A DNA stretch of 64,000 nt, from assembly GCA_028715055.1 (NCBI GenBank), contig JAQTLE010000002.1, positions 62,001 to 126,000 of the forward strand. The letters are read 5' to 3'. Below are positions 22,103 to 27,526 of this stretch, piece after piece. The notes beneath the pieces are model-generated. The model was given only the letters and a program-made list of their open reading frames with translations. It was not told the origin of the DNA and did not search any database. The stretch comes from Sulfurovaceae bacterium (lineage in GTDB: Bacteria; Campylobacterota; Campylobacteria; Campylobacterales; Sulfurovaceae). The translations under genes and the position numbers were made by a program. The stretch's first letter is position 1. Each line of letters begins with the position of its first letter.

Positions 22103-23473
22103 ATGAAGATGAGAATATATCTCATACTCATGTGCGTTACTTTTCCTGTTTTTGGAGATGTAACAAATCTTGAGCTTAAAGAAGCATTAGCAATGCTTAA
22201 AGAAAAAAATCTTGAAATCAAAGTAGCACAGTTTGATGCCCAGATGAAACAATTGGAATCCAAACTTCCAATGGCTAGCCGTCTGGGAAAAATAGATGCT
22301 ACGCTTGGCGCAATGCGTTCAAATGATGCAGGAAGTGTGTTTGGGTTTAAACTTCAAAGTAGAGAAGCTACATTTGGAGATTTTGGTTTTAGTGATTTTT
22401 TGTCACCACCACCTGATTGTGCATCAAATATACTAAATTGTCAACCACATGATCTCAATTATCCAAAAGCAAGAAATCATTATCTGACTAAATTTACATA
22501 TTCTGTTCCATTATTTACCGGTGGCAAAATAACTCAATACAGCCGTATAGCGCACGATATGTATGAGATGAGCAAGATAGACAAAGACAAAGTAGTGGCT
22601 CAAAAAGTTTTTGAGACCAAAAAAACATTTTATGATATCACTCTTATAGAAAACTATATAAACAATTTGTCAAAAATAAATAATAATATCTCTCGCTTGG
22701 AAGATACCGTAAAAGAGATGACAAAAGAAGGTTTTGCCATTAAAACCGATCTATTGGAAGTTCAAGCTCATAAAGCTGAAGCCCAAAGCTTGCTTATACA
22801 AGCTAAACTTAACCGCGACCTTGCATATCAATATCTTTCATTTTTATTAAATAATGAAGTTAAATCAATTAAAAAAATTGATGAAATGGCTCCACTTAAC
22901 ATGCCAACAAAAGATGAAATACAAAATAATAGTTTTGATATTCAAAAAGCACTTTTAGGTTTACAAATAACTGAAAATGCAGTATGGATCCAAAGAGCTT
23001 CATTTTTGCCGATGATCGGAGGATTTGCAGAATATGGAAGTGCCGATAATGTAATATTTAACGATTTCCATAATCATGATTTTTATACTATCGGTTTACA
23101 AGCTAGCTGGAATATTTTTAACGGATTTGCTGATAAGATAAATTTAGAAAAAGCAAAATTAGAAAATCTTAAAACCATAGACCAAGTTGAGCTTGCAAAA
23201 AGCGGGACCGAGCTAAAAGCCAAACAGTTACAAACAGCAGCACTTAGTGCATTTGAAATGACAAGAAGTGATGAAAAAAGCTTGGCTTTTGCTTCGCAAG
23301 TGTATGAAAATTATTTGGCAAAATACAAAGAAGGCTTAAGTCCAGTAGGTGATGTTTTGATCAAGCAATCAAAAGAACTTGAAGCGCTTTTGAAGCTCTT
23401 AACGGACAAAAATACATACAATGCCAAAGTATTTGAGCTTGATAGTTTAACAAAAAAAGGAGAGGAACAATGA
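22103..23473 (+). CDS. TolC-family outer membrane efflux protein
   Basis: Signal peptide; NLELKEALAMLKEKNLEIKVAQ; periodic coiled-coil regions; first gene of an adaptor/RND operon. Confidence 0.9.
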   Translation: MKMRIYLILMCVTFPVFGDVTNLELKEALAMLKEKNLEIKVAQFDAQMKQLESKLPMASRLGKIDATLGAMRSNDAGSVFGFKLQSREATFGDFGFSDFLSPPPDCASNILNCQPHDLNYPKARNHYLTKFTYSVPLFTGGKITQYSRIAHDMYEMSKIDKDKVVAQKVFETKKTFYDITLIENYINNLSKINNNISRLEDTVKEMTKEGFAIKTDLLEVQAHKAEAQSLLIQAKLNRDLAYQYLSFLLNNEVKSIKKIDEMAPLNMPTKDEIQNNSFDIQKALLGLQITENAVWIQRASFLPMIGGFAEYGSADNVIFNDFHNHDFYTIGLQASWNIFNGFADKINLEKAKLENLKTIDQVELAKSGTELKAKQLQTAALSAFEMTRSDEKSLAFASQVYENYLAKYKEGLSPVGDVLIKQSKELEALLKLLTDKNTYNAKVFELDSLTKKGEEQ

Positions 23474-24183
23474 AGATAAAATTAGCAATTATATTTTTAC
23501 TAACATCTATATACGGCTTTGGGTCAAATCTTAGTCTAAGTGGTAGCGTAGTGTCAGATAATCAAAAGATGCTCGCAAGCCGTAATATGGGATATGTTAA
23601 AAAGATGTTGGTTTCTGAAGGTGATTTTGTAAAAAAAGGACAACTACTTTATGTTATTGATCCAACTGAGACTAACGCAGCGGAACAAATGAATAAAAAT
23701 CAACTTGACAATACACTAGCCAACCTAGCTAGATATGAGAGATTGTACAAAAAAGATATGGTATCAAGATATGACCTTGAAAATATGAGACTTGCTGCCA
23801 AAAATCAAAAAGAGATGCTCAAGATTTCCCAAGGACAAGATGATTATCTCAATGTAAGAGCTCCAAATGATGGAATAATAGTAGCCAAAAAAATCAATCA
23901 AGGCGAGATGATAGCTCCTGGAATGCCGACTATTATACTGACTGATCTAAGCAAACTTAGAATTGTTGTTGAAGTAAGCGAAAGTAGTTTGCGTCAGATC
24001 AAAATTGGAAAAACTGTAAAAATAGATATTCCATCAGCTGATCTTAAAACCACAGGAACTATAAGCTCTATTATACCGTCATTAAATCCGATGACTCATA
24101 AATTTACTGTTAAAATCAAATTTAACAAAGGTGATACTAAAATTTATCCTGGTATGTATGCCAGAATTACTATTCCCGTATAA
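23470..24183 (+). CDS. RND efflux periplasmic adaptor (membrane fusion protein)
   Basis: Biotinyl-lipoyl-like GYVKKMLVSEGDFVKKGQLLYVID; VRAPNDGIIVAKKINQGEMI; ATGA overlap with the TolC-like gene. Confidence 0.9.
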   Translation: MKIKLAIIFLLTSIYGFGSNLSLSGSVVSDNQKMLASRNMGYVKKMLVSEGDFVKKGQLLYVIDPTETNAAEQMNKNQLDNTLANLARYERLYKKDMVSRYDLENMRLAAKNQKEMLKISQGQDDYLNVRAPNDGIIVAKKINQGEMIAPGMPTIILTDLSKLRIVVEVSESSLRQIKIGKTVKIDIPSADLKTTGTISSIIPSLNPMTHKFTVKIKFNKGDTKIYPGMYARITIPV

Positions 24184-24185
24184 AA

Positions 24186-25802
24186 GTGATGATTATGCAA
24201 ACACAACACGAGGTATATAAAACAAAAGATATAGCCGGTCGTCTGGCTAGTGGTTTTTTAAAAAATCCACTCACTGCGCTTTTAGGGGCTTTTTTGCTTT
24301 TGATGGGATATTTGGCGCTTAGTATAATGCCAAGAGAGGAAGACCCGCAGATAGCAATTTCCGGCGGAACCATAATGGTCGCTATGCCTGGTGCTACTGC
24401 CAATGAAGTAGAAAAAGTTATTGTTAATCCTTTGGAAAGAAGACTTAGAGAGATTAAGGGTATCGAACATATCCAGGGTATGGCTATGGATAATGTCGGT
24501 ATCGTCAACGTTATGTACTACATAGGCCAAAACAGGGAAGATTCCAATTTAAAACTTTATGATAAAGTTATGCAAAATATGGATGAATTGCCAAAAGGCG
24601 CTATGCAACCAATAGTAAAACCTTTTGATATAGATATAGATATTCCAATCGTTACTGTTGCATTTTATGCAAAGGATCCAAAAAAGATCAATCAAGTGCA
24701 ACTTTATAATAAAATCCGCTCTATCCAGCAAGAACTTAATGGCATAGATAGCGTATCCAAAACTACACTAAAAGGAGATCACAGAGCTCAATATAATGTG
24801 CAAGTTGATCTCAATAAACTTAGTGGGTATAATCTTTCTCTTGGACAAATTATGCAAGGAATACAAGCTGTTGCCAATGGTGTTCCTAGTGTTAAAAGCC
24901 GTACAAGCAATGGCGGCATGGTTGTGCTTGGTGTCAAAAATGCTATAGAGAGCGTTGAAGACGTGGGAAATATTGCAGTTGCTGATTACGGCGGATCATT
25001 GATATATTTAAGAGATGTAGCTACCGTTACTGAAGGCACAGATATTCAAAATTTTAAAAATGCCACTATTATGTTTAGAGACGAAAGCGGTTCTAAAATG
25101 AGTAATGAATATGCTCAGACAACATTGAGTATATCAAAATTAGCCGGTACAAATGCAGTTAATGTTGCCAATGATGTTTTGGATGTATTAAAAAATAATG
25201 ATAGAATGCTTCAAGATGCAGGTATAGGATATGTAGTTACTAGAAACTATGGCACAAGAGCAGATAATGCAGTAAATGAGCTTATGCAACATCTCATCAT
25301 TACAATTATTATTATTTCGATTATGCTGATATTTGCACTTGGATGGAGAGAATCTCTTATTGTTACCTTTACGGTTCCGGCTATTTTGGCTATAACACTT
25401 TTTGTGGCATATCTTGGAGGACAAACAATCAACCGTATTACTTTGTTTGCATTTTTGCTGTCACTAGGATTATTGGTAGATGCTGCGATTATTGTAATCG
25501 AGAATATCCATCGTCATCTTCATAGTCATACGGCCGAAAATCAAAGCATGGAAGAACTTCTTGTGGAAGCTACTGACGAGATAGGACCGCCTACAAATAT
25601 AGCAACATTGGCTATCATTTTGACAATGGTCCCGATGGCATTTGTCGGCGGAATGATGGGATCATTTATGAAACCGATCCCGCTTAACGTACCTGTTGCT
25701 CTCGTGGCATCGTTGTTTGTAGCTTATATATTTACACCGTATTTGAGTTTAAAATTACTTAAAAAACCGACACATAATAGTACACACAAGGAGACAAAAT
25801 GA
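24186..25802 (+). CDS. RND efflux permease, N-terminal half (TM1 to about TM6)
   Basis: NPLTALLGAFLLLMGYLALSIMPREEDPQI; PGATANEVEKVIVNPLERRL; LLSLGLLVDAAIIVIENIHRH (motif A-like); ends just after the TM6-like segment. Confidence 0.92.
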   Translation: MMIMQTQHEVYKTKDIAGRLASGFLKNPLTALLGAFLLLMGYLALSIMPREEDPQIAISGGTIMVAMPGATANEVEKVIVNPLERRLREIKGIEHIQGMAMDNVGIVNVMYYIGQNREDSNLKLYDKVMQNMDELPKGAMQPIVKPFDIDIDIPIVTVAFYAKDPKKINQVQLYNKIRSIQQELNGIDSVSKTTLKGDHRAQYNVQVDLNKLSGYNLSLGQIMQGIQAVANGVPSVKSRTSNGGMVVLGVKNAIESVEDVGNIAVADYGGSLIYLRDVATVTEGTDIQNFKNATIMFRDESGSKMSNEYAQTTLSISKLAGTNAVNVANDVLDVLKNNDRMLQDAGIGYVVTRNYGTRADNAVNELMQHLIITIIIISIMLIFALGWRESLIVTFTVPAILAITLFVAYLGGQTINRITLFAFLLSLGLLVDAAIIVIENIHRHLHSHTAENQSMEELLVEATDEIGPPTNIATLAIILTMVPMAFVGGMMGSFMKPIPLNVPVALVASLFVAYIFTPYLSLKLLKKPTHNSTHKETK

Positions 25803-27526
25803 TGAATAAATTTGAAAATTTTGTCTTTGGCATATTGGATAATCCTAAGAAAAAAAAGATGGTTTTGATCCTTACGGCTGTTGCATTTGTACTTTCGCTG
25901 CTTATGTTTCCTACTAAGATAGTATTGGCAAAAATGCTTCCAGGCAAAAGCGATAATACATTTTCAGTGTATGTAGATACACCTTCTGGAACATCTATTG
26001 AACAAACAAATCGCGTAAGTCAATGCGTAATTGATTTGATGAAAAAAGAAAATGAAGTTTTAAATATCGAACTTTTTTTAGGTCAAGGTATGCCGCTTGA
26101 TTATGCAGGGTTAGTTAAAGGTTCGGGCATGAAGCAGGCAGAAAATGTTGCTGAGATCGCAGTTAATTTAACAGATAAGCATGAAAGAGATGAACCGTCA
26201 TATCTCATGGTAAAACGTCTAAGACCGATTGTGCAAAAGCAATGTGAAGGTATAATAAAAAATACATCAATTAAGTTTGTTGAACAACCGGCCGGTCCAC
26301 CGACTATGGCATCAATCGTTGTAGAAGTTCATGGTGATAATATACAAAAAGATCGTGATATTTCATCAGATGTGGTTAAGATTCTTAAATCTACCAATGG
26401 GCTTGTTGATGTTGATATATTTGGAGACAAGATGTATCAACAATACCAACTTATTCCGGATAAAGAGAAAATCGCTGGGAGCGGAGTAAGTGTTGAACAG
26501 CTTAATAATATATTGTATCTAGCATTTGAAGGTATGATTGTAGGAGAAAAAAATACTCAAGAATATTCTGATCAGATCCCTATATTTTTATCTCTTGACA
26601 AAGAAAGTAAAAGCATGGAATCATCAGATGAGCTAGATGTACAAAATAAGCTATCATCTCTCAACCTAATGAGCCCAACCGGCGCTATGGTATCGGTTAG
26701 TGATTTAGTTACATTGAAGAAAGTTGATTCAAATCCTGTAATTATGCATAAAGATCTAGATCGCATGATAAATGTAGTAGCTGAAACAGATATGGTTTCG
26801 CAAGTTTATCCGTTACTAGATGCAAGAAGCAAAATGATAGATTATTTTTCGAAAAACTATGAAGTAACTAAAGTACCCGGTATGTCGACATATATGTTCG
26901 ACCTCAATCTTAAAGATAAAAAAACCGGAGAAAAGTTTTTGTTAAGATGGGATGGCGAAATGAAGGTAACACTAGATACTTTCCGTGATCTTGGCGGTGC
27001 ATTTATAGCTGCATTGGTTCTTATTTTCTTACTTTTGGTAGTTTACTATAAGAGTTTTACACTAAGCGGAATAGTTCTTTTGGGTTCATTTTTATCTTTG
27101 ATAGGCGTAATAGTAGGGCATTTTGTAGCCAATTTAGTAACACGAGATACGTTCTTTTTGACTGCCACTTCTCTTATCGGGTTTATCGCTCTTATGGGCA
27201 TAAGTTCTAGAAATTCGCTTTTGCTTATAGATTTTGCTAAATCACTTATGGAATGCCATGGCATTCCAAAGAGAAAAGCAATAGCTGTAGCAGCTGCTAC
27301 AAGAGCTAAGCCGATTGCTTTAACTGCTGTTGCTATTATCTTGGGTTCTGCTTTGTTGGCAAGTGATCCAATATTTGGTGGGTTGGGAGTTGCTCTAATT
27401 TCAGGAACAATTGCGGCTGTGTTCGTATCTTTGTTGTTTGTACCAATACTAATGGATAATGCCAAAGCTATGGATTTTGAGCCAGAGGTTTGTGATATAA
27501 AAGAAGACATCTCAATAACTAAATAA
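25799..27526 (+). CDS. RND efflux permease, C-terminal half (about TM7-TM12)
   Basis: Begins at a TM7-like segment (KKKKMVLILTAVAFVLSLLMFPTKIVLAKMLPG...FSVYVDTPSGTSIEQT); TM10-12 FIALMGISSRNSLLLIDFAKSLM; RBS AAGGAG 5 nt before ATG. Confidence 0.92.
   Translation: MMNKFENFVFGILDNPKKKKMVLILTAVAFVLSLLMFPTKIVLAKMLPGKSDNTFSVYVDTPSGTSIEQTNRVSQCVIDLMKKENEVLNIELFLGQGMPLDYAGLVKGSGMKQAENVAEIAVNLTDKHERDEPSYLMVKRLRPIVQKQCEGIIKNTSIKFVEQPAGPPTMASIVVEVHGDNIQKDRDISSDVVKILKSTNGLVDVDIFGDKMYQQYQLIPDKEKIAGSGVSVEQLNNILYLAFEGMIVGEKNTQEYSDQIPIFLSLDKESKSMESSDELDVQNKLSSLNLMSPTGAMVSVSDLVTLKKVDSNPVIMHKDLDRMINVVAETDMVSQVYPLLDARSKMIDYFSKNYEVTKVPGMSTYMFDLNLKDKKTGEKFLLRWDGEMKVTLDTFRDLGGAFIAALVLIFLLLVVYYKSFTLSGIVLLGSFLSLIGVIVGHFVANLVTRDTFFLTATSLIGFIALMGISSRNSLLLIDFAKSLMECHGIPKRKAIAVAAATRAKPIALTAVAIILGSALLASDPIFGGLGVALISGTIAAVFVSLLFVPILMDNAKAMDFEPEVCDIKEDISITK

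Follow-up and report, generated by a model that had tools for sequence, protein, structure and literature searches.

The permeases of the RND family are usually, though not universally, single polypeptides of about 1000 residues. A survey of Burkholderia describes most but not all RND permeases as single-chain (PMC2891726), the Are pumps of Aliarcobacter have been described with one inner-membrane gene each (PMC8300790), and a survey of HME, NFE and HAE-1 permeases makes no mention of splits into half-size chains (PMC10872679). A natural two-chain RND-type unit is represented by SecD/SecF, with six transmembrane helices (TMs) per chain (PMC8277102). According to the account that Eicher et al., 2014 (PMC4359379) give of Eda et al. 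2003, MexB halved at the N-terminal end of helix Iα, between TM6 and TM7, was functional. In the open-access literature, with subscription journals lying mostly outside, our searches turned up no account of a tripartite RND permease that is split in nature, nor of the clade presented here.

The stretch of DNA analysed (the window, 64,000 nucleotides) harbors a complete four-gene RND operon on the + strand at positions 22103-27526, in which the permease, instead of a single polypeptide of about 1000 residues, is encoded by two ORFs that are conserved as such. The operon consists of an outer-membrane factor (OMF), an adaptor (MFP), and the N-half and the C-half of the permease:

22103..23473, + strand: TolC-family outer-membrane factor, operon gene 1; Pfam OEP 2.9e-39, NCBIfam TolC/AbuO models
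23470..24183, + strand: periplasmic adaptor (MFP), 237 aa; NCBIfam RND_mfp 146 bits against a cut-off of 94.9, HlyD_D23
24186..25802, + strand: RND permease N-half, 538 aa, with TM1-TM6 and the first periplasmic loop; Pfam ACR_tran 6.5e-73, profile 5-497
25788..25805, + strand: junction, with AAGGAG inside the N-half gene and a 4-nt overlap of ATG and TGA; coupling conserved over 112 loci
25799..27526, + strand: RND permease C-half, 575 aa, with Iα, TM7-TM12 and the second periplasmic loop; Pfam ACR_tran 2.9e-44, profile 526 onward

The outer-membrane factor and the adaptor adjoin the permease, as in a tripartite efflux operon, and are found in most of the homologous loci. The start of the adaptor gene overlaps the stop of the OMF gene (ATGA), and the adaptor (23470-24183) is short compared to the 322-position RND_mfp profile that it matches. 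The N-half starts with GTG and the C-half with ATG. Both ORFs score above the cut-off of PF00873, covering profile positions 5-497 (N-half) and from 514/526 on (C-half), and the match of the C-half to the NCBIfam RND models reaches profile position ~1003. The sequence-only reading of this DNA had described a permease made of ORFs of 538 and 575 residues; its coordinates are correct, and the comparison of each half with the RND families bears it out. The host genome, a draft of 1.76 Mb in 23 contigs, encodes two further RND permeases, both ordinary and single-chain (frames of 1048 and 1014 aa), as well as a separate SecD/SecF-like pair (frames of 524 and 329 aa) identified by size, order and a weak RND match.

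Alignment of the window permease with AcrB, MdtB, MdtC, CusA and 55 relatives located the cut at the TM6/TM7 repeat boundary, where the earlier reading had placed it. Relative to AcrB, the N-half extends past TM6 into a short hydrophilic linker and ends there, and the first element of the C-half is the amphipathic helix Iα, which lies at the cytoplasmic face before TM7; in the AF2 model of the C-half, these helices span residues 2-14 (Iα) and 16-35 (TM7). The TM-by-TM alignment against AcrB and the AF2 models together gave 12 TM helices, of which TM1 and TM7 are each followed by a large loop. In a mutagenesis study, AcrB was reported to be inactive when the TM6-TM7 amphipathic helix is swapped for Gly-Ser repeats (PMC5546932), in line with Iα having stayed with the C-half.

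The cut also divides the proton relay. Asp432 of the N-half corresponds to D407 of AcrB, whereas Arg471, Arg502 and Thr509 of the C-half correspond to K940, R971 and T978, respectively; thus neither half has the whole relay. The position of D407 is occupied by Asp in 38/38 split permeases and that of K940 by Arg in all 37 rows with a residue there, and R971 and T978 are kept wherever the alignment covers them. The position of AcrB D408 is Ala433 in the window N-half (about 25482-25484). Among the split permeases this position is Ala in 29 of 38, Asp in eight and Ser in one, compared to mostly Asp or Ser in the single-chain relatives. As judged from the alignment, many members of the split clade seem to have lost the second relay Asp, and with Ala in place of D408 the relay is not identical to that of AcrB.

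For the overall fold, we modelled the homolog L043, the halves of which are 77% and 75% identical to those of the window, as a 1097-residue chain with its in-frame TAG read as Gln. The read-through model adopts the structure of one RND protomer (pLDDT 83.3, pTM 0.76), and, being a tethered chain of a relative rather than the two free chains of the window, it is a weak test of assembly. It has a coil at the junction, directly followed by Iα at residues 534-546, and its best match in the PDB is AcrD, with a TM-score of 0.83. The C-half modelled alone had a poor global arrangement (pTM 0.47), and the fold search with it gave local matches only, with a TM-score of 0.35. By profile, topology, fold and relay, the protein is an RND permease.

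At the junction in the window, AAGGAG (25788-25793) is followed by a 5-nt spacer and the ATG of the C-half (25799-25801), which overlaps the TGA of the N-half (25800-25802), exactly as had been read from the sequence. A second in-frame ATG at 25802 is a possible alternative start of the C-half. Over 96 homologous loci, the C-half start lies mostly at -1 or -4 nt from the N-half stop (range -20 to +12 nt), the reading frame of the C-half relative to the N-half varies by locus (0, +1, +2), and the C frame is often open just 4-22 nt upstream of the N stop. Given the varied distances and frames, the split does not depend on one frozen sequence. A ribosome-binding match of at least 4 nt precedes the C-half start in 96% of 112 split loci, compared to 18% for internal ATGs. 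In L043, L096, L099, L103 and L112, the C-half lies in frame right after a TAG, the read-through of which could give a full-length chain.

The last 22 residues of the N-half (window 25734-25799) are His-rich throughout the clade, with 14.8% His against 1.9% elsewhere and at least three His in 74 of 112 loci. His also occurs in the same linker of single-chain relatives; hence the His-rich trait may predate the cut. It is conceivable but unlikely that the free ends left by the cut have acquired a function of their own, in which the His-rich tail of the N-half or the N-terminus of Iα would gate or regulate the pairing of the halves, with assembly setting pump activity.

The permease is split at the same break in all 96 homologous loci scored, which comprise the window, 80 loci of the genome_contigs set and 15 others that are mostly repeats of the same genomes, giving at least 81 distinct loci. 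In a wider set, 112 of 129 loci are split, and the other 17 are more distant single-chain relatives. Chance falls far short of accounting for such recurrence. A finished replicon, plasmid pSULKU01 of Sulfuricurvum kujiense, has the split as well. Strong purifying selection acts on both halves, with dN/dS values of 0.046-0.074 between the window and six relatives; these values are approximate, as dS approaches saturation in the more distant comparisons. The gene order serA-OMF-MFP-N-C-efp is conserved: among 40 loci with long flanking sequence, serA is present in 37 and efp in 31. A replicon of Sulfurovum mangrovi is annotated with this order too, and both halves carry the label of RND permease subunit there.

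An order-wide search with the N-half matched 275 of 399 genomes at E <= 1e-70, and among the matches listed all are in half-size open frames. The phylum-wide search with the C-half matched 163 of 397 genomes, all of those among the matches listed being Campylobacterales, in a sample whose out-of-order share is not visible. Junctions were read directly in families f1, f4, f6, f7, f8, f9, f11, f14, f16, f18 and f20. Single-chain relatives (frames of 1062-1238 aa) occur in families f5, f12, f15, f17, f20, f21 and f23 of the same order, and also on plasmids of Polaromonas, Kovacikia, Flammeovirga and Salinivibrio; two genomes, G039 and G058, carry a split and a single-chain copy together. Phyla beyond Campylobacterota were covered through the plasmid collection only, so that independent fissions elsewhere are possible.

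Other split pairs were also seen. The pair of plasmid pSULKU01 (L139:3425-6704) shows 46% identity in each half and lies immediately behind a TetR-type regulator; the stretch covered has neither an adaptor gene nor an outer-membrane gene. In addition, L122, L123, L124, L125 and L126 represent a second split paralog group of 55-59% identity with Asp-Asp in TM4, of which L124, L125 and L126 showed neither an adaptor nor an outer-membrane factor like those of the window in the stretch examined.

In a tree of 60 permeases, either concatenated N- and C-halves or single chains, the 38 split permeases, which represent at least 11 families, all lay on the same side of one branch (SH-aLRT 100). Owing to a long-branch warning among the references, the tree was rerun without the long rows and rooted on MdtB/MdtC. 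In the rooted tree, the 38 split permeases form one clade (bootstrap 100, SH-aLRT 100, 200/200 bootstrap trees examined), next to which stand the single-chain permeases of Campylobacterales, with those of Polaromonas, Kovacikia and Flammeovirga outside; no re-fusion was seen. One fission explains the data. Since the split clade is nested in single-chain relatives and each half matches its own half of the full-length profiles, the sequences point to a secondary fission long after the duplication. The kinship with a half-size ancestor of the duplicated RND fold, as suggested by the sequence-only reading, does not hold up: descendants of such an ancestor would branch outside the full-length permeases, whereas the split clade lies inside the single-chain ones and is derived rather than a relic.

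ORF splits of this kind are common artefacts in draft genomes, and the host genome of the window is such a draft, which would favor a sequencing or assembly indel, or a recent frameshift that left a pseudogene. The probability of this explanation is practically negligible, however, as 96 of 96 loci from many independent assemblies are split with different junction sequences, none of the close relatives has a continuous ORF, the finished plasmid pSULKU01 has the split too, and dN/dS is about 0.05 in both halves. Together with the ribosome-binding matches before the C-half starts, this upholds the earlier view of an established, translationally coupled split instead of a frameshift. It is also decidedly unlikely that programmed frameshifting or read-through of the stop codon fuses the two ORFs into one mature polypeptide. 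Low-level read-through is possible at several loci with an in-frame TAG (L043, L096 and L112), but the relative frames take all three values, the C frame is often open over a few nucleotides only, the junctions vary, and the conserved feature is the ribosome-binding match. A programmed frameshift was rejected, as neither the frame nor the overlap is conserved.

The halves of RND permeases are internal repeats, and half-size members exist in SecD and SecF (PMC8277102), so that each half might instead work separately as a homo-oligomeric, half-size transporter resembling the proposed RND ancestor. We consider this highly improbable, because the relay residues are conserved on opposite chains, the C-half comes after the N-half in 96/96 loci, and the tree derives the split from single-chain permeases. 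Very little probability is likewise left for a reversed history, with two chains as the ancestral state and the single-chain relatives produced by later fusion. A single change on an unrooted tree has no direction by itself; nevertheless, rooting on MdtB/MdtC nests the split permeases inside the single-chain ones, with the relatives from Campylobacterales, Polaromonas, Kovacikia and Flammeovirga branching outside, and the profile matches of the two halves agree with an origin from a full-length chain.

Altogether, we propose that the N-half and the C-half very likely depend on each other as the two chains of one protomer, which probably assembles as (N·C)3, and that the tripartite pump is ordinary in other respects. 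The permease gene was cut once, in an ancestor within Campylobacterales, and the two pieces have been kept since. The C-half would be translated separately, by reinitiation or coupling at the ribosome-binding site in the end of the N-half gene, and coupled translation would keep the two products at near equal amounts. In the membrane, the N-half, with TM1-6 and the first loop, would then pair with the C-half, which contributes Iα, TM7-12 and the second loop, to give one protomer, and three N·C pairs would make up the usual trimer, which would dock to the adaptor and the outer-membrane channel. In the putatively active transporter, protons would flow via the standard relay split over the chains, in which Asp432 of the N-half acts with Arg471, Arg502 and Thr509 of the C-half. 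The claim of the sequence-only reading that each protomer needs two different half-chains is judged right, with the assembly itself being what we infer.

The Asp-Asp in TM4 and the Lys in TM10 of the AcrB-type HAE-1 permeases are absent, as TM4 has VDA in 29 of 38 and TM10 has Arg; the NCBIfam subfamily scores are far below the cut-offs, which a half chain could not reach anyway. The VDAA motif of TM4 prompted a comparison with CusA-type metal pumps, which were rejected, as the HME site of CusA (Met573/Met623/Met672 and Glu939) is replaced by Tyr, Val and Ile at the Met positions and by Arg at E939. Because the permease lacks the tested features of both HAE-1 and HME, it is assigned to no substrate class.

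The split clade is evidence from nature that two chains can make up an RND protomer, divided where an artificial cut in MexB was reportedly tolerated, and offers a native system for studying the recognition between repeats R1 and R2 and a proton relay across a chain boundary. It is also a warning for annotation: the pairs go by the label of two permease subunits, and a count may mistake them for truncated genes or for two pumps.

Compared to MexB and AcrB of the HAE-1 type, the split permeases share the fold, the repeats, the operon partners and recognisable D407, K940, R971 and T978 positions. However, they have two chains instead of one, about 20% identity by structural alignment, and the substitutions D408 to Ala and K940 to Arg. 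The single-chain relatives from Campylobacterales and from the plasmids of Polaromonas, Kovacikia, Flammeovirga and Salinivibrio belong to the same subfamily, are similar in total length and fully cover both halves, but consist of one ORF, which is 31-49% identical to the N-half and 28-41% identical to the C-half. MdtB/MdtC also has two permease genes within one RND operon; these encode full-length homologous chains from a gene duplication, not halves (PMC7015380). Two-chain RND units are already known in SecD/SecF, which is a protein translocation factor without an adaptor or outer-membrane channel. A further parallel is the halved MexB of Eda et al. 2003, as related in PMC4359379: the natural cut is at the same place as the cut reported there to be functional. 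The halved MexB is a laboratory construct, whereas the split of the present clade is natural, translationally coupled and fixed in many families.
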